From assembly GCF_024178385.1 (NCBI RefSeq), contig NZ_JAMZMM010000015.1:1-36501 (forward strand): DNA of 36,501 nt, given 5' to 3'. A program made the translations under genes and the position numbers. Position 1 is the first letter of the stretch, and the number at the start of each line of letters is the position of its first letter. Origin of the DNA: Limnofasciculus baicalensis BBK-W-15. GTDB lineage: Bacteria > Cyanobacteriota > Cyanobacteriia > Cyanobacteriales > Coleofasciculaceae. Below the pieces are notes generated by a model. The model had not been told where the DNA came from, ran no database searches, and was given only the letters and a program-made list of their open reading frames with translations. Positions 1-32,361 of the stretch are shown in pieces.

Positions 1-22
1 AGGCGGCAGGGAGGAGAGTTTT

Positions 23-69
23 AACTCAAAACTCAAAACTCAAAACTCAAAACTCAAAACTCAAAACTC
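23..69. repeat. Heptanucleotide tandem array (STRR) at the tadA stop
   Basis: About six copies of the 7-bp unit CTCAAAA run from 25 to 66. Read on the minus strand, the unit supplies the last codons and the TGA stop of tadA (54-56). It is a short tandemly repeated repetitive sequence of the kind known from cyanobacteria. The 7-bp period is not a multiple of 3, so stops recur in every frame. Confidence 0.9.
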
Positions 70-513
70 CCCCTTCCCCGGCGATTGGCAAACCAGGATT
101 GAAGTTGTTTTCGACAGGTAGATTCCATTATTCCTGCAATGACGGGTAAACGATGGTTGGAGAAAGGGCTATCGGGAATATTGGTAACGGTGCGGATTGT
201 GCCAGTTTTGGGATCGTCCACAGCGTAGACTAGAAGTCCTAACCTTGCTAAAACGATCGCACCTGCACACATGGCACAGGGTTCTAATGTAACGTAGAGG
301 GTGCAATGGTTGAGATGCCAGGTTTGCAGGGTTGTACCTGCTGCGCGGAGGGCGAGTATTTCTGCATGGGCGGTGGGATCTTTATCTCTTTCCCGACGAT
401 TTTCGGCGGTGGCGATCAAGTTATCGTTATTATCAATAATTACTGCACCGACGGGTACTTCTCCGGATTCACCTGCGCTTTGGGCAAGTGCGATCGCTTC
501 CTTCATCCATTTT
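54..513 (-). CDS. tadA: tRNA-specific adenosine deaminase TadA, exon 2 (main body)
   Basis: This segment encodes almost all of TadA, the zinc enzyme that deaminates A34 to inosine in the anticodon of tRNA-Arg(ACG). Joined to exon 1 (2652-2695) the product is 167 residues, normal for the family. Zinc-site motifs are clear: H64-A-E66, with E66 the proton shuttle, and P93-C94-A-M-C97. The first ATG in this segment (504-506) would give a protein lacking the conserved N-terminal helix, which shows the gene is interrupted and not simply short. Exon 2 begins at 513, directly after a group II intron. The 44-nt and 460-nt exons together make 504 nt, exactly 168 codons including the stop, and the junction reads H-R-K-W-M, as expected for TadA. 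The C-terminus and stop fall in a heptamer array. Functional TadA probably depends on intron splicing; that is inference. Confidence 0.93.
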
Positions 514-533
514 GGTAGAGTCGAGGGAGGCGA

Positions 534-2105
534 TTATGCCTCGCCCCTCTCTGTTAGATCTGGGCGTGCAACTTTCACTGCACCCAGCTCCCGACAATCT
601 GTTTTGCTCTTATGGTGTATGTAGTCATGACAGCTTTCGTGAACAACCATTAGATTTTTGTCTTTCCAGTTGCTGTGATTGCCGTCAATGTGATGTAGAG
701 GCACTCTTTCTTCTCCCATGAGAAGATGACCACAGTGTCCACAAGTATGATTCTGCTTTTTTAGCAGTTTAGAGGTTTTACCGTCGTACAATGCGCTGTT
801 ACGCTTTGACCAGTAAAGGATATCTCCATCGAAAGGTGACTTATTCCCTTTGACATTTACGAATTTGTTTTCGTGATGGGGAACAGCGGGGAAAGCTTGG
901 TTTATCAAATCGGTGACTTGATCGCGATTTAGCTTACTTTCTTTGTTGAATACTTTCCAGGCTCTGTGATTGATGTGCCATAAACTAAAGCGTGACCCAT
1001 CTAATTTACAGAACTGGTGATAGTTTCTCCATCCTCTGACAATAGGTGCTAGCTTTTCTGCCTTTACCTTTGCCCCATAATTCGAGTTATTGACGATTTT
1101 TTTGACTTTATCTCGGAATTTTTTGAAGTTATCCACTGAGGGTTGACTTCTAAATTTTCCGTTTTTCTGCACTTTGAAGTGCCATCCTAGGAAGTCAAAT
1201 CCATCTGTCGTTGCGGTTACTTTTGTCTTCCTTTCACTAACATTCATCCCTCTGGATGCAAGGAACTGACGTATTTGGTCAAGTATTTTTTCAGCGTCAT
1301 CTTTCGGTTTGAGGATAATCACCATATCGTCGGCGTACCTGACCGATGGGTGTATAGCCTCGATACCATCTAGTGCTATGTTTGCCAGTAGTGGGCTAAC
1401 TACTCCCCCTTGTGGTGTCCCTTGTTCAGGGAATTCTGGGTTTACTCCTGCTTTAAGACAACGGAAGATTCCGTCTCTAATACCCATTGGGGCAATGAGT
1501 CTATCCATAATAGTAGTGTGGCTTATTCTGTCAAAGCACTTTTCGATATCTAATTCGATGACGCGATTGGTTATTCCATTCTTACCGGAGTTTAGGTTTT
1601 GGAACAGGTATTTCTGAGCGTCATGTGCCGCTCTACCTGTTCTAAATCCGTAACTCCGTTCGTGGAATAACGCTTCGTGTGCAGGTTCTATGGCGTATTT
1701 GACTAAGCATTGCCACGCTCTGTCGTACATTGTGGGCACTTTTAATATTCGGGTTGACCCATCCTTCTTTGGTATGGGAATTTCTCTTAGCCCTTGGTGC
1801 TTCCATCTGTTAACATTAGACTTGAGAGTGTTACTCAAATCAAAGCGTTCCTGATGCGTCAGGGATGCTTTGCCGTCTATACCCGGGGTTTTCTTGCCTG
1901 CGTTGAGTTGTGTTACTTGACGTATTGCCAGTAATCTTGCTGCTAGGGACTTCAGAATTAGCTTCTGTAATGACTTGGCTTTACGCATGTCATTGGCTCG
2001 AATAGCTTTATACACTCGTCTTTGTAGGCGGAACAGATTACGGCGGTATTGCTTCCACGGTAGTTTGTTCCATAATTCACTAGCTTTTATCCTGTGTCCA
2101 ATCAT
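534..2105 (-). CDS. Group II intron-encoded reverse transcriptase/maturase with HNH domain
   Basis: This 523-residue intron-encoded protein assists splicing (maturase) and mobility by target-primed reverse transcription. Visible domains are an N-terminal RT0-like region, the RT palm with G-T-P-Q-G-G near 229-234 and the catalytic Y-A-D-D at 257-260, a maturase domain X around 310-420 with the block R-G-W-R-N-Y-H, and a C-terminal HNH nuclease. The HNH part has two C-x-x-C pairs and the core L-H-H-I-D-G-N, so the enzyme looks able to cut the second DNA strand. No frameshift or internal stop is seen and all key residues are present, so it looks active. The last codons are read through domain V, and the stop (534-536) lies in domain VI. 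The start at 2105 is the first ATG of the open frame and could be slightly off. Confidence 0.93.
   Translation of the reverse strand: MIGHRIKASELWNKLPWKQYRRNLFRLQRRVYKAIRANDMRKAKSLQKLILKSLAARLLAIRQVTQLNAGKKTPGIDGKASLTHQERFDLSNTLKSNVNRWKHQGLREIPIPKKDGSTRILKVPTMYDRAWQCLVKYAIEPAHEALFHERSYGFRTGRAAHDAQKYLFQNLNSGKNGITNRVIELDIEKCFDRISHTTIMDRLIAPMGIRDGIFRCLKAGVNPEFPEQGTPQGGVVSPLLANIALDGIEAIHPSVRYADDMVIILKPKDDAEKILDQIRQFLASRGMNVSERKTKVTATTDGFDFLGWHFKVQKNGKFRSQPSVDNFKKFRDKVKKIVNNSNYGAKVKAEKLAPIVRGWRNYHQFCKLDGSRFSLWHINHRAWKVFNKESKLNRDQVTDLINQAFPAVPHHENKFVNVKGNKSPFDGDILYWSKRNSALYDGKTSKLLKKQNHTCGHCGHLLMGEERVPLHHIDGNHSNWKDKNLMVVHESCHDYIHHKSKTDCRELGAVKVARPDLTERGEA
557..590 (-). ncRNA. Group II intron domain V
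   Basis: The segment is exactly 34 nt, the canonical length. On the minus strand it has the catalytic AGC triad near its 5' end, a GAAA tetraloop and the two-base CG bulge before the descending strand. The base opposite the G of the triad is A (the 3' end reads CAGATC) where GTTC is usual, so the typical G-U wobble is replaced by G-A. Domain VI follows (about 516-553), with an unpaired A about seven bases before the 3' end. Confidence 0.8.
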
Positions 2106-2651
2106 GCTCTACATCCAATTTGTGTACTCTGATTGCCTTTGAGCAATTACGCTCAATCCTACCCGAATCCTTGGGGTTACTCGTCTCGTCTCGTCTACCA
2201 GGGGTTCGACCTTCCCTGGACCTTAGATTCGTTTTTATTCGTTCCCTCAAGCGATTTTCTTGTCCCTTTAGGTGGAACCAATTCAACCATTGGATACCCT
2301 TAGTACGGCTACTCTTTCATCGAGAAGGTAGCGGGTATAAACTCCAATAAAGTCAGGGGGGTTAATCTTTTGCGATCCTGCTTTCAGATAGGCTGCTTTT
2401 GTAGGTTCTGTTTTCACCGTGGGGACTCCCCTAGCGCCAGTGTGGTTTCGGTCAACCTCTGATTGCGCCCTGTTCCCAGCTTCAGCCTCTAGAATTCCGA
2501 GTCTAGTCACTGTGGGCAGATTAGGAGTCACACCCGTACTTGGTGGGAGGGACTTGCACCCTCATCATCTTGAGAGTTTTACAGTCTTTAGTGGCTGTAA
2601 GTGACGTTAGTTCGTGGGTTTAGCCACTGATTCGGTCACAACGAATCGCAC

Positions 2652-2695
2652 CGATGAATCTGATATCCTGCTTGATCTATTGGATGTAGTGTCAT
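2652..2695 (-). CDS. tadA: TadA exon 1 (N-terminal 14 codons plus 2 nt)
   Basis: This short exon is easily missed. It reads M-T-L-H-P-I-D-Q-A-G-Y-Q-I-H plus the first two bases of an Arg codon, then meets the GTGCG start of the intron at 2651. Joined to the A at 513 it gives H-R-K-W-M-K-E-A, the N-terminal helix typical of TadA. The ATG is at 2693-2695. No strong Shine-Dalgarno sequence is visible upstream, which is common in cyanobacteria. The last seven bases form the IBS1 site that pairs with the intron EBS1. Confidence 0.88.
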
Positions 2696-7577: not shown

Positions 7578-8144
7578 TTATTTAAACAGAATTTCTACAG
7601 GACAACTAAACTCAGGTAAAAGAGGACTAGTTAGATTATCTTCCCTAAATAACGTAGCGGCTAATTTTAAAATACCATTTTCCCGCCGATAAACTTCTAC
7701 TTTTATCTGTTGGCGATTAAAAATCCAGTATTCTCGCACTCCTTGAATTGAGTAAAGTTTCAGTTTCACTTCCCTATCCCGCCTTTCCTGCTCCGCACCT
7801 GGAGATAGTACTTCCACGACTAATTCTGGCGCACCTGTTAAATGCCCAGCTTCATCCAAAATCTCGGCTAAACGTTCATTACTCGCCCAAACTACATCAG
7901 GAATTACATTATCAGCATCTGTAAAAATAATACCAGGACTAGTAGCTGCATCTCCTAACCCCGTGTTTCTTGACCAAATTTTCAATTCTGTGCAAACATT
8001 ATCAGCAACATTTTGATGTTTCCAGTCAGGCGCTCTTGTCACAAATAAGTCTCCATTAATAATCTCATAATGTTTGCCATCATTGGATAATAACTCCAAG
8101 TCAGCAGTTGTCCAGCGTATTTTATCTATTACTGTGGGGGACAT
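7578..8144 (-). CDS. Uma2 family (DUF820) protein, tandem copy 1
   Basis: 188 residues with the Uma2 core: Y-E-I-I-N-G-D-L near the N-terminus, V-I-P-D-V-V-W-A in the middle, E-L-V-V-E-V-L-S-P, the R-D-R-E-V-K helix and V-R-E-Y-W-I-F-N. It belongs to the PD-(D/E)XK-like group; its role is unknown. It is almost identical to the next gene (8268-8834). About 565 bp are shared with only four visible base differences in the coding part, giving a Ser/Pro difference near residue 20 and a changed C-terminus (V-E-I-L-F-K against V-E-L-L-F-R). The duplicated block begins at the shared TTCTACAGG (7593) and runs some 10-15 bp past the start codon. This points to a recent duplication or ongoing gene conversion. 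Confidence 0.88.
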   Translation of the reverse strand: MSPTVIDKIRWTTADLELLSNDGKHYEIINGDLFVTRAPDWKHQNVADNVCTELKIWSRNTGLGDAATSPGIIFTDADNVIPDVVWASNERLAEILDEAGHLTGAPELVVEVLSPGAEQERRDREVKLKLYSIQGVREYWIFNRQQIKVEVYRRENGILKLAATLFREDNLTSPLLPEFSCPVEILFK

Positions 8145-8267: not shown

Positions 8268-8834
8268 CTATCTAAATAAAAGTTCTACAGGACAACTAAA
8301 CTCAGGTAAAAGAGGACTAGTTAGATTATCTTCTCTAAATAACGTAGCGGCTAATTTTAAAATACCATTTTCCCGCCGATAAACTTCTACTTTTATCTGT
8401 TGGCGATTAAAAATCCAGTATTCTCGCACTCCTTGAATTGAGTAAAGTTTCAGTTTCACTTCCCTATCCCGCCTTTCCTGCTCCGCACCTGGAGATAGTA
8501 CTTCCACGACTAATTCTGGCGCACCTGTTAAATGCCCAGCTTCATCCAAAATCTCGGCTAAACGTTCATTACTCGCCCAAACTACATCAGGAATTACATT
8601 ATCAGCATCTGTAAAAATAATACCAGGACTAGTAGCTGCATCTCCTAACCCCGTGTTTCTTGACCAAATTTTCAATTCTGTGCAAACATTATCAGCAACA
8701 TTTTGATGTTTCCAGTCAGGCGCTCTTGTCACAAATAAGTCTCCATTAATAATCTCATAATGTTTGCCATCATTGGGTAATAACTCCAAATCGGCAGTTG
8801 TCCAGCGTATTTTATCTATTACTGTGGGGGACAT
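8268..8834 (-). CDS. Uma2 family (DUF820) protein, tandem copy 2
   Basis: 188 residues, the near-identical twin of the gene at 7578-8144 and in the same orientation, 123 bp upstream of it. The same Uma2 motifs are intact, so both copies look able to fold and neither is a visible pseudogene. The intergenic text differs between the copies outside the duplicated block. An AACGCAAAGAGCG(C/G)AAAG word lies on both outer sides of the pair (7559-7576 and 8935-8953), which may mark the recombination that produced the duplication; that is inference. Either copy could be the original. Confidence 0.88.
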   Translation of the reverse strand: MSPTVIDKIRWTTADLELLPNDGKHYEIINGDLFVTRAPDWKHQNVADNVCTELKIWSRNTGLGDAATSPGIIFTDADNVIPDVVWASNERLAEILDEAGHLTGAPELVVEVLSPGAEQERRDREVKLKLYSIQGVREYWIFNRQQIKVEVYRRENGILKLAATLFREDNLTSPLLPEFSCPVELLFR

Positions 8835-9042: not shown

Positions 9043-9894
9043 TCAAATTAGATCCGGATCGATCCCTTGCGATCGCAAATATGCCGCTAATCGCTCTTTC
9101 TGTTGCTGTTCTCGATCCGCACGTTCTCGTTCTTGTTCGGCACGTTCTCGTTCTTGCTGGGCACGTTCTCGTTCCTGCTGGGCACGTTCTCGTTCTTGTT
9201 CGGCACGTTCTCGTTCCTGCTGGGCAATAGCCTCTACTTCTTGAACTTTCTCTACTGCCCAAGGTAGCATTGTCCCAGCTTCGTCCCACCAGCGCAACCA
9301 GTATCCTGTCCTTTCTTCTTTCTTGCCCCGCCAGGTTCCCAAAAATAACATCATTTCTGGAATCCAATGCCGTCCGTTTTCATCGGGCATTTGCAATTGA
9401 TAGGTGCTATTTTCCAGGACGTAAAACTCTAATAATCCACCCACAGGCTCAAAGATTATGTAATATGGGACTTGCAAAATTCGTTCGTAGAAGTGCCATT
9501 TTCCGGGTGGATAGGTTTGCTTGGAGGAATATTCTTCGCCTTCTGTTGCTGAGAGAAACTCCATCACAATTGTTGGGATATCTCCTTCTAAATTAGGTGT
9601 ATAGCTGCGACGTTCTTCTGTACCTTCGAGGGGCAATACAGCAGGCACGTACAACCAATCGGGCGCTTTCACCACCATCTGCTCGTCCACCGTAGCGCAC
9701 AAGCCAAAATTGGACACTACTAGCATTTCAGGACGAATCCAATTTGCTAGTTCCAGGCTTTCGCGCAATGCACCAGCCAGCAAAGGTTGAGCAGTATTTT
9801 CCACGGGATCGTCAGGGAGTTGATAATCGGCAGGCAAGGGTTCCCAGCGAATCTGAGATTGAATTCGAGGGGGTTTAACTGGAGTCACAGTCAT
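9043..9894 (-). CDS. Uma2 family protein with C-terminal coiled coil
   Basis: 283 residues in two parts. Residues 1-200 hold a Uma2-like domain (E-G-D-I-P-T-I-V-M-E-F-L-S as the strand with acidic residues, then Y-Y-I-I-F-E-P). Residues about 215-270 form a highly charged coiled coil of repeated R-E-R-A-(E/Q)-Q-E heptads ending in L-R-S-Q-G-I-D-P-D-L. The heptads come from five 21-bp direct repeats in the DNA (9119-9223). The last residues resemble those of the Uma2 gene at 35,443 (L-R-L-L-G-I-N-P-D-D-L), which marks a distinct Uma2 subtype with a coiled-coil tail. The ATG at 9892-9894 starts the first recognisable segment. Function is unknown; the tail suggests oligomerisation. Confidence 0.85.
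   Translation of the reverse strand: MTVTPVKPPRIQSQIRWEPLPADYQLPDDPVENTAQPLLAGALRESLELANWIRPEMLVVSNFGLCATVDEQMVVKAPDWLYVPAVLPLEGTEERRSYTPNLEGDIPTIVMEFLSATEGEEYSSKQTYPPGKWHFYERILQVPYYIIFEPVGGLLEFYVLENSTYQLQMPDENGRHWIPEMMLFLGTWRGKKEERTGYWLRWWDEAGTMLPWAVEKVQEVEAIAQQERERAEQERERAQQERERAQQERERAEQERERADREQQQKERLAAYLRSQGIDPDLI
9119..9223. repeat. Five 21-bp in-frame direct repeats
   Basis: Five consecutive units begin with GCACGTTCTCGTTC at 9119, 9140, 9161, 9182 and 9203. They lie in the coding strand of the Uma2 gene at 9043-9894 and each encodes one seven-residue heptad. Loss or gain of a unit would leave the frame intact and change the coil length. Confidence 0.93.
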
Positions 9895-16850: not shown

Positions 16851-17429
16851 TCATCTTCCCATATTTCGTTTCATTCGCTCTAATTCTGCTTCTGTTTCCC
16901 AGTTAGTAAATTGTTCTTCTAGGGGATCATTTCCACTGGAAATATTGCGCTGGTAATTATGATTCCAGCCAGATGTTTGAGGAGGTGATTGAGATTTAGA
17001 ATTAGCATGAGTAGCTGCTACTTCTTTGGCTTTAGCTTTTACTTCAGCCCGACGAGTTTGAATCTGACGTTGCAATTCTTTAGTTTGAGCAAGTCGCTGC
17101 TTGACACCTTCCATTTTGCCCCAAATTTGGTTACCCTGATGTAAAAGATTCGCCTCTCTTTCTTGAGCAGCTTGAGCTAAATCTTGTCTGCCATTAGCCC
17201 TTGCCTTTTCCACTCGCCCATGCCAGAGCTGAATATCTTGGGCGATCCCTAAAATTTCATTTTGCAAGTTCTTTTCTTGAGTTTGTAAGTCAATAATTAA
17301 CCGCAGAGTATCTTCTTCTTGCTCTCGTAATTGTTCTTCTAGTGCTTGTAATTCTAGATGGGGATTGTTACGCAAAAATTCATCAAGGCGGTTTTCGAGA
17401 AAGCGATTTAGATCTTCAAATAAACTCAC
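16851..17429 (-). CDS. Coiled-coil protein of the TIGR04376 type
   Basis: 192 residues, highly helical and charged. The opening S-L-F-E-D-L-N-R-F-L-E-N-R-L and the L-E-L-Q-A-L-E-E-Q-L segment match what I recall of the cyanobacterial TIGR04376 family, which has no assigned function. Residues about 25-135 form a long coiled coil. Residues about 140-180 are Ser/Asn/Pro-rich and probably disordered. There is no signal peptide or membrane segment. It converges on the GTPase gene with two heptamer arrays between. Confidence 0.72.
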   Translation of the reverse strand: MSLFEDLNRFLENRLDEFLRNNPHLELQALEEQLREQEEDTLRLIIDLQTQEKNLQNEILGIAQDIQLWHGRVEKARANGRQDLAQAAQEREANLLHQGNQIWGKMEGVKQRLAQTKELQRQIQTRRAEVKAKAKEVAATHANSKSQSPPQTSGWNHNYQRNISSGNDPLEEQFTNWETEAELERMKRNMGR

Positions 17430-30876: not shown

Positions 30877-32361
30877 ATGAATCTGAAAAAAATGCCTGTC
30901 ACAATGACCAAAGGCGTAGTCCAAAATGCCATGGCTTCCGGAGAATACGATACAGGAATTGAAGCCAAAATACAACTATTGCAAATAGCTATAGCACCGA
31001 CAAAATTAACTACAGTTGAAGAATTAGTCCTCCGCTACGTTTTAGAGGGAGAATCTTACACAGAAATTGCCTTAAAACTAGGTTATAACTACGATTACAT
31101 CAAATCAATCGGCTCTAAGTTATGGCAATTGCTCTCCAAATCCTTGGGAGAACCTATCACCAAACGTAATCTTAATTCTGTAATCAAGCAAAAATTAGCA
31201 TCTGTCAAAATAGATAAGACTCCGCCAAAAAGTCAACTAAATCTACCTCCAAAAATACAAGACTGGGAGGAATCAATTGATACATCTTTTTGCTTCGGAC
31301 GTATTGAAGAAATCTCAATCCTCAAACAATGGATTCGGCAAGATAAATGCCGTCTAGTCTCAATTTTAGGGATGGGAGGGATGGGAAAAACTGCCCTCAC
31401 AGCACGGACAGTTGAACACCTACAAGGAGACTTTGACTATGTGATTTGGCGATCCGTCCGTCATCTACCCTCACTAGATGAACTTCTAACAGACATATTA
31501 CAAGTTTTCTTTGCAGCACGAGAAAATGACCTCGCAGACGATACCAATAGTCGGATCAATTGCTTGCTCGCTTATCTGAAAAATTACCGCTGTTTGCTAA
31601 TAATAGATAACTACGAATCATTTATTCTTAGCAGTAAAAACATAGAACATAAATTCACCTCTCCCCCTGCCCCTTCCCTGGAAGGGAAGGGAAGTCAAGT
31701 CCCCCCCTTCCCTTCCAGGGAAGAGGGGTTAGGGGGATTAAGTTTATCAATCGGTCAATACCTTCCAGATTATGAAGAATACAGTCAACTCCTCCGCCGA
31801 ATTGGAGAAGAGCGCCATCAAAGTTGTTTGCTGCTCACAAGTCGAGAAAAACCGACAAGATTAGCCGCAAAAGAAGGAGAAAAATTACCCATTCGCTCCT
31901 TAAACCTCAAAGGATTAGGTGTCCCTGAAGCCCAATCTATTTTCCAAAGCATCGGACTTTCTCTATCAGAATCCGCCGGAAAACAAATAGTTCACCGTTA
32001 CAGCGGTAATCCCCTGATATTAAAAACCGCTGCTACTGTGATTCGAGATTTATTCGAGCGAGATGTTAAGGAATTTTTAGCCCAAGATACGTTAATATTT
32101 AGTGAAATTGCTAGTTTATTAAACCAACAATTAGATCGATTATCAAGCTTAGAATGGCAAGTGATGGACAGACTAATCGTTTATCGAGAAGGAGTATCCT
32201 TAGAGCAATTACAAAACGATTTACATCACTCCGTCAGTAAGTCACAACTAATTGAAGCCCTCAAAGCGCTAAAATGGCGATCCCTCCTGGAAACAGCCAT
32301 GTCTCAATATAAGCTGCCTCATTTGGTTTCAAAGCATTTAGCCAAACATTCAGCTAGGTGA
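30877..32361 (+). CDS. NB-ARC STAND ATPase with VMAP-type N-terminus, no WD40 repeats
   Basis: 494 residues. Residues about 25-115 look like the helix-turn-helix domain found at the N-terminus of VMAP-type conflict proteins (S-Y-T-E-I-A-L-K-L-G-Y, Y-I-K). Residues 140-490 form the NB-ARC NTPase switch: P-loop G-M-G-G-M-G-K-T (165-172), Walker B L-L-I-I-D-N (240-245), T-S-R-E-K-P and G-N-P-L, ending in a winged helix. Related cyanobacterial proteins usually continue into WD40 or TPR repeats that sense a ligand; here the frame stops at a TGA after S-A-R, so the sensor part is missing. Residues about 257-291 are a Pro/Gly-rich insertion encoded by a palindromic repeat. It is probably a truncated or regulatory form of a programmed-response ATPase. 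Confidence 0.82.
   Translation: MNLKKMPVTMTKGVVQNAMASGEYDTGIEAKIQLLQIAIAPTKLTTVEELVLRYVLEGESYTEIALKLGYNYDYIKSIGSKLWQLLSKSLGEPITKRNLNSVIKQKLASVKIDKTPPKSQLNLPPKIQDWEESIDTSFCFGRIEEISILKQWIRQDKCRLVSILGMGGMGKTALTARTVEHLQGDFDYVIWRSVRHLPSLDELLTDILQVFFAARENDLADDTNSRINCLLAYLKNYRCLLIIDNYESFILSSKNIEHKFTSPPAPSLEGKGSQVPPFPSREEGLGGLSLSIGQYLPDYEEYSQLLRRIGEERHQSCLLLTSREKPTRLAAKEGEKLPIRSLNLKGLGVPEAQSIFQSIGLSLSESAGKQIVHRYSGNPLILKTAATVIRDLFERDVKEFLAQDTLIFSEIASLLNQQLDRLSSLEWQVMDRLIVYREGVSLEQLQNDLHHSVSKSQLIEALKALKWRSLLETAMSQYKLPHLVSKHLAKHSAR
31670..31728. repeat. Palindromic intergenic-type repeat inside a coding region
   Basis: CCCCTTCCCTGGAAGGG (from 31670) is followed to 31691 and reappears as its complement at 31705-31728 with one extra base. 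The surrounding text (31655-31742) encodes P-A-P-S-L-E-G-K and P-S-R-E-E-G-L-G-G in frame. Relatives of the GGAAGGAGAG palindrome occur between genes near 17,530. Confidence 0.88.

Follow-up and report, generated by a model that had tools for sequence, protein, structure and literature searches.

A gene for wobble inosine, tadA, is not where a bacterial group II intron would be expected, as these introns are usually located outside housekeeping genes. The 36,501-nucleotide stretch of Limnofasciculus baicalensis BBK-W-15 DNA that we analysed (hereafter the window) contains such an arrangement and raises the question of how full-length TadA could be made from it.

Structure of the interrupted tadA gene

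Close to its beginning, tadA is clearly interrupted by a complete group II intron of a putatively mobile type, and this is the sole tadA copy that we found in the genome. The intron (514-2651, minus strand, 2138 nt) lies in sense with the gene and follows the second base of codon 15. Exon 1 (2652-2695, minus strand, 44 nt) holds codons 1-14 plus the first two bases of codon 15, and its start codon and frame align with those of the intron-free tadA of G001, a genome of the same genus, while exon 2 (54-513, minus strand) is an open frame of 460 nt including the stop codon. The initial annotation had described an exact in-frame join of 44 + 460 = 504 nt with the junction H-R-K-W-M. Joining the reverse complements of 2652-2695 and 54-513 reproduced this result and gave a 167-codon TadA frame with the translation MTLHPIDQAGYQIHR-KWMKEA...GSFEF*, and the frame is lost if the intron is made to end one or two bases earlier.

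Hallmarks of group II introns are an AGC triad in domain V and a bulged A near the 3' end in domain VI, and their ends are GTGYG on the 5' side and a pyrimidine after a conserved A on the 3' side. A search of 117 related genomes at the DNA level yielded many related introns, 19 of which were full-length, could be delimited at both ends and were aligned. The 5' sequence of the tadA intron is GTGCGATTCG, and both its GTGCG start and the domains V and VI at its 3' end, noted initially, were seen again, the domains through a match to Rfam RF00029 and a comparative fold. Domain V (557-591, minus strand, approximate edges) carries the AGC triad and a GAAA loop, and all 13 predicted pairs are kept in each of the 19 introns, several with compensatory changes. 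Domain VI (514-553, minus strand, approximate edge) has a consensus fold with compensatory pairs and a conserved UCGACUC motif; the likely branch point is A521, at a distance of eight bases from the 3' end. The intron thus runs from GTGCG to ACC and has the expected 5' and 3' ends, the strict AY terminus not being kept in the introns that end in ACC. We also sought the gamma-gamma' pair in the first 600 intron bases and found no column that covaried with both exceptions.

The contacts between the intron and its exons are all on the minus strand. EBS1 reads CGATGAA (2322-2316) and, as proposed in the initial annotation, is fully complementary to TTCATCG, the seven bases with which exon 1 ends (IBS1, 2652-2658); its conserved six bases (2317-2322, alignment columns 335-330) covary with exon positions -1 to -6. 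EBS2, TCTGA (2384-2388, columns 268-264), is the exact complement of exon positions -12 to -8 (IBS2, 2659-2663), with covariation in 14-16 of the 19 introns per column, and EBS3 (2281) pairs with the first base of exon 2 (IBS3, 513). Across the 19 introns, covariation with the flanks thus extends to six adjacent columns of EBS1, five of EBS2 and one of EBS3. On average, EBS1 and IBS1 form 5.2 of 6 pairs when an intron is matched with its own exon, versus 2.3 of 6 when exons are swapped. EBS1 pairing was poor in three introns, namely L052 and both copies at L037, possibly because of misalignment. At the L037 locus (G000:C724:5500-13500), which lies outside the window, two such introns are arranged in tandem, head to tail, and the second begins one base after the first ends. 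Because the EBS/IBS rules are obeyed at both edges of the tadA intron, we rejected an assembly chimera.

Reading of the 3' exon by EBS3-IBS3 is a feature of class IIB and is also found in class IIC. Here, EBS3 lies away from EBS1, EBS2 is present, domains V and VI are in place, and EBS1 (7/7), EBS2 (5/5) and EBS3 (1/1) all pair and covary. On these predicted structures, the intron is a group II intron that is IIB-like as judged from its exon contacts.

The 3' edge and the empty site

A covariance-model search, suggested earlier as a way to fix the 3' edge, was successful for domains V and VI, whereas the edge itself came out one base away: the RF00029 match extends from 592 to 515 (52.7 bits, gathering score 40) and not to 514. 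An end at 515 would frameshift tadA, and therefore we gave the 3' boundary an independent test using the 19 delimited introns. All 19 begin with GTGCG and end with TCGACTC[AT]A[ACT][CT], followed by a variable base. EBS3, at intron position 371, forms a Watson-Crick pair with the first base after this 3' end in 18 of the 19 introns and a G-U pair in the remaining one. The next best column reached 12 of 19, and none of 2000 shuffles reached 18 (maximum 15), a count that is not to be read as a probability since the introns are mutually related. For base 514 itself, no partner column like EBS3 was found among the first 600 intron positions. We conclude that the predicted EBS3-IBS3 contact fixes the 3' edge at 514 and that the Rfam end is one base short.

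When the same 3' rule was used to cut related introns out of other genes, removal of the L049 intron gave an Ap4A phosphorylase with a Pfam match continuous across the joint (E 2e-87), and removal of the L068 intron gave a frame with an LmeA domain. The predicted restoration of these two genes is a second, independent check of the rule.

The intron-free site offers a further comparison. A search for intron-free tadA in related genomes had been proposed with the initial annotation; in G001, tadA is uninterrupted, and its product is 91% identical to the protein predicted here. The site reads TTCATCGCAAATGG in G001 and TTCATCG-intron-AAAATGG in the present genome. If the true 3' splice site were at 515, where the RF00029 match ends, the spliced frame would be shifted and tadA would be dead, and the present gene would have a C at +1, as the empty site of G001 does. 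Such a cut requires exon 2 to have gained one A compared with the G001 gene, whereas a cut at 514 leaves the synonymous CGC/CGA difference alone; moreover, EBS3 covaries with the base after 514 and not with 514, the 19 introns share a common 3' end with variable bases beyond it, and two other genes are restored by an end of the 514 type. We therefore give a splice site at 515 almost no credence and retain 514. For this group of cyanobacterial introns, the end of an Rfam domain V/VI match can be one base off the splice site.

TadA matches were found in 92 of the 96 other relatives. Judged by tadA, Coleofasciculus and Moorena are the closest named relatives, which points to their part of the Cyanobacteria for the host. 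None of the strong matches is split at the same codon, as all begin at residue 13 or earlier (G086 has weak matches only). A search for the same-site pattern, in which the intron end is joined to TGGATG with the right spacing, recovered a single genome among 386 of the phylum, namely the present one. As the G001 site is empty and the pattern is unique, the intron would have been inserted after the split from G001, or lost in G001. A literature search that was not informative on subscription journals or annotation databases returned no report of a group II intron in tadA.

Proposed splicing and the supply of TadA

Taken together, these observations argue that a mobile-type group II intron lies in sense in tadA and is very probably spliced with its own maturase to give full-length TadA. 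Retrohoming is the most likely route by which the intron would have entered tadA, in the sense strand at ATATCAGATTCATCG^A. Once transcribed, it would fold, helped by its own maturase, and pair with both exons, and splicing would join CAT-CG to A-AAA-TGG-ATG. The resulting full-length TadA would then deaminate tRNA-Arg(ACG). We infer the occurrence of splicing in the cell, its efficiency and its necessity from the sequence.

The spliced protein scores 154.8 bits against the NCBIfam TadA equivalog NF008113 (cut-off 150) and matches the structure of E. coli TadA (1z3a, E 9e-36). It contains the zinc motifs HAE and PCAMC, and all catalytic motifs are encoded by exon 2. At the distal end of the gene, a heptamer repeat, (CAAAACT)n at window positions 20-66, overlaps tadA, and the last residues and the stop codon lie inside this simple repeat.

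The location of the catalytic motifs draws attention to the internal ATG at 504-506 (minus strand) that the initial annotation and its list of open reading frames had pointed out. The codon is present and in frame, lies 27 nt beyond the stop codon of the intron reading frame and eight bases into exon 2, and could start a 150-residue TadA that lacks 17 residues. Exon 2 alone, translated from this ATG, scores 147.6 bits against the TadA model, just under the cut-off of 150, and in four distant bacterial TadAs (L110, L126, L132 and L149) there is no in-frame ATG, GTG or TTG upstream of the corresponding Met. Splicing would be unneeded if initiation at this AUG of the unspliced transcript yielded a working short enzyme, perhaps through coupling to the end of the intron-protein frame. 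We regard this as unlikely, given that all 29 cyanobacterial tadA genes compared (L008-L036) begin at an in-frame start farther upstream and conserve an H..W immediately ahead of the Met, features that would be missing from the short form, and that no Shine-Dalgarno sequence was seen by eye before the ATG, which is itself preceded by an out-of-frame ATG four bases earlier. It is decidedly improbable, too, that the intron acts as a switch, with spliced RNA giving full-length TadA and unspliced RNA giving the shortened protein from the internal AUG. Were this so, a selfish intron would have turned into a control point for a decoding enzyme and, via TadA, for the translation of CGN codons. The split gene provides a natural test of how far TadA can be shortened. 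We think that full-length TadA made by splicing would be the main product.

Whether the cell would depend on this product, as the initial annotation held, is related to the other decoding components in the genome. A second intact tadA was not found in the draft assembly (99.26% complete). C527, a 398-residue frame with 35% identity, was considered as a second tadA and set aside, as its length and similarity suggest RibD. Arginine tRNAs that read CGN were found with the anticodons ACG (two genes) and CCG, and no GCG or TCG arginine tRNA was found in the draft genome; therefore, decoding of CGU, CGC and CGA would rest on the TadA-modified tRNA. The second tRNA-Arg(ACG) gene belongs to an array of 19 tRNA genes (L181, G000:C123:3400-7600), which also includes a tRNA-Leu(AAG), another possible inosine substrate. 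Elsewhere, tRNA models matched two stretches of 137 and 124 bases (G000:C637:16448-16584 and 17087-17210), neither of which is called by ARAGORN.

These data make a dependence of the cell on tadA splicing plausible. Bacillus subtilis, however, can do without TadA (PMC10454642), and growth in M9 minimal medium did not differ significantly for an E. coli TadA mutant that edits hardly any tRNA-Arg2 (PMC13170351). A broken tadA might be tolerated, either because unmodified tRNA-Arg(ACG) suffices, for which the B. subtilis result speaks, or because polyploid cells keep intron-free copies, cyanobacterial polyploidy having been proposed to allow introns in essential genes (PMC8919778). This we consider very improbable, since the genome yielded no tadA free of the intron and since both exons, every EBS/IBS pair and the frame of the maturase are intact. 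The intron may, however, have been inserted recently, so that the intact gene is not yet proof of selection for splicing. We also considered a feedback in which TadA edits UACG sites in the intron and dropped the idea, as eight TACG sites were counted and nothing further supported it. With splicing of tadA as the preferred reading, an in-sense intron in a single-copy tadA with all exon contacts intact represents a clean natural test of the efficiency of bacterial splicing for a core decoding function.

Possible intron mobility and comparison with known systems

The intron encodes an intact protein of 523 residues (534-2105, minus strand) with RVT_N, RVT_1 with YADD, and GIIM maturase domains (Pfam PF13655, PF00078 and PF08388). 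A C-terminal HNH-like motif was read by eye, and Pfam gave no HNH match. The nearest solved structure is 6me0_C (E 5e-69). Against the NCBIfam model for group II reverse transcriptase/maturases the protein scores 280.8, below the cut-off of 300, which we counted against our explanation although the main domains are present. Comparison with the copy in G090 gave a dN of 0.081 and a dS of 0.516 (dN/dS about 0.16), indicating that the intron protein evolves under purifying selection.

Further full copies of the intron were sought in the genome, and only 3' fragments without the 5' part were found: one of 291 nt at 99.7% identity (G000:C399:4940-5230) and one of 219 nt at 93% (G000:C239:5756-5974). 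The 99.7% fragment is a sign of recent activity or duplication of the intron. The C239 fragment adjoins a separate intron piece of 23 nt.

The window also contains two nearly identical Uma2-family genes in tandem (7578-8144 and 8268-8834) and a further Uma2 protein (9043-9894) with a long charged repeat at its end, Pfam having been examined for 7578-8144 and 9043-9894. Between 17960 and 23805, an unknown protein, a KAP/AAA ATPase-like protein and two paralogous DUF1802 proteins follow each other in a run that could be an uncharacterised system; this run gave no PADLOC match, and neither did an NB-ARC protein (PF00931) at 30877-32361.

With regard to known systems, the tadA intron is clearly a new case of a gene interruption whose kind is already known. 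In Trichodesmium erythraeum, 17 group II introns splice in vivo, many of them in protein-coding genes (PMC4649490). Both cases concern cyanobacterial group II introns in protein-coding genes with a frame restored by splicing, a restoration that is shown in vivo there and predicted from sequence here; in addition, many of the Trichodesmium introns have no protein of their own and one is a twintron, whereas the present intron carries its own maturase and resides in tadA. Cyanobacterial group IIB introns of the chloroplast-like (CL) type (PMC4424553, PMC8919778) share the host phylum, the protein domains and the EBS3-IBS3 recognition of the 3' exon, and we found no difference from them in a comparison that covered the protein by its domains and cyanobacterial host. 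Closest at hand are the related cyanobacterial introns L042 (85% identical, in G090), L049 and L068, which have boundaries and exon-pairing rules in common with the tadA intron. Like it, L049 and L068 lie within conserved genes, and all three differ from it in their target sites, with EBS1, EBS2 and EBS3 changed to match.
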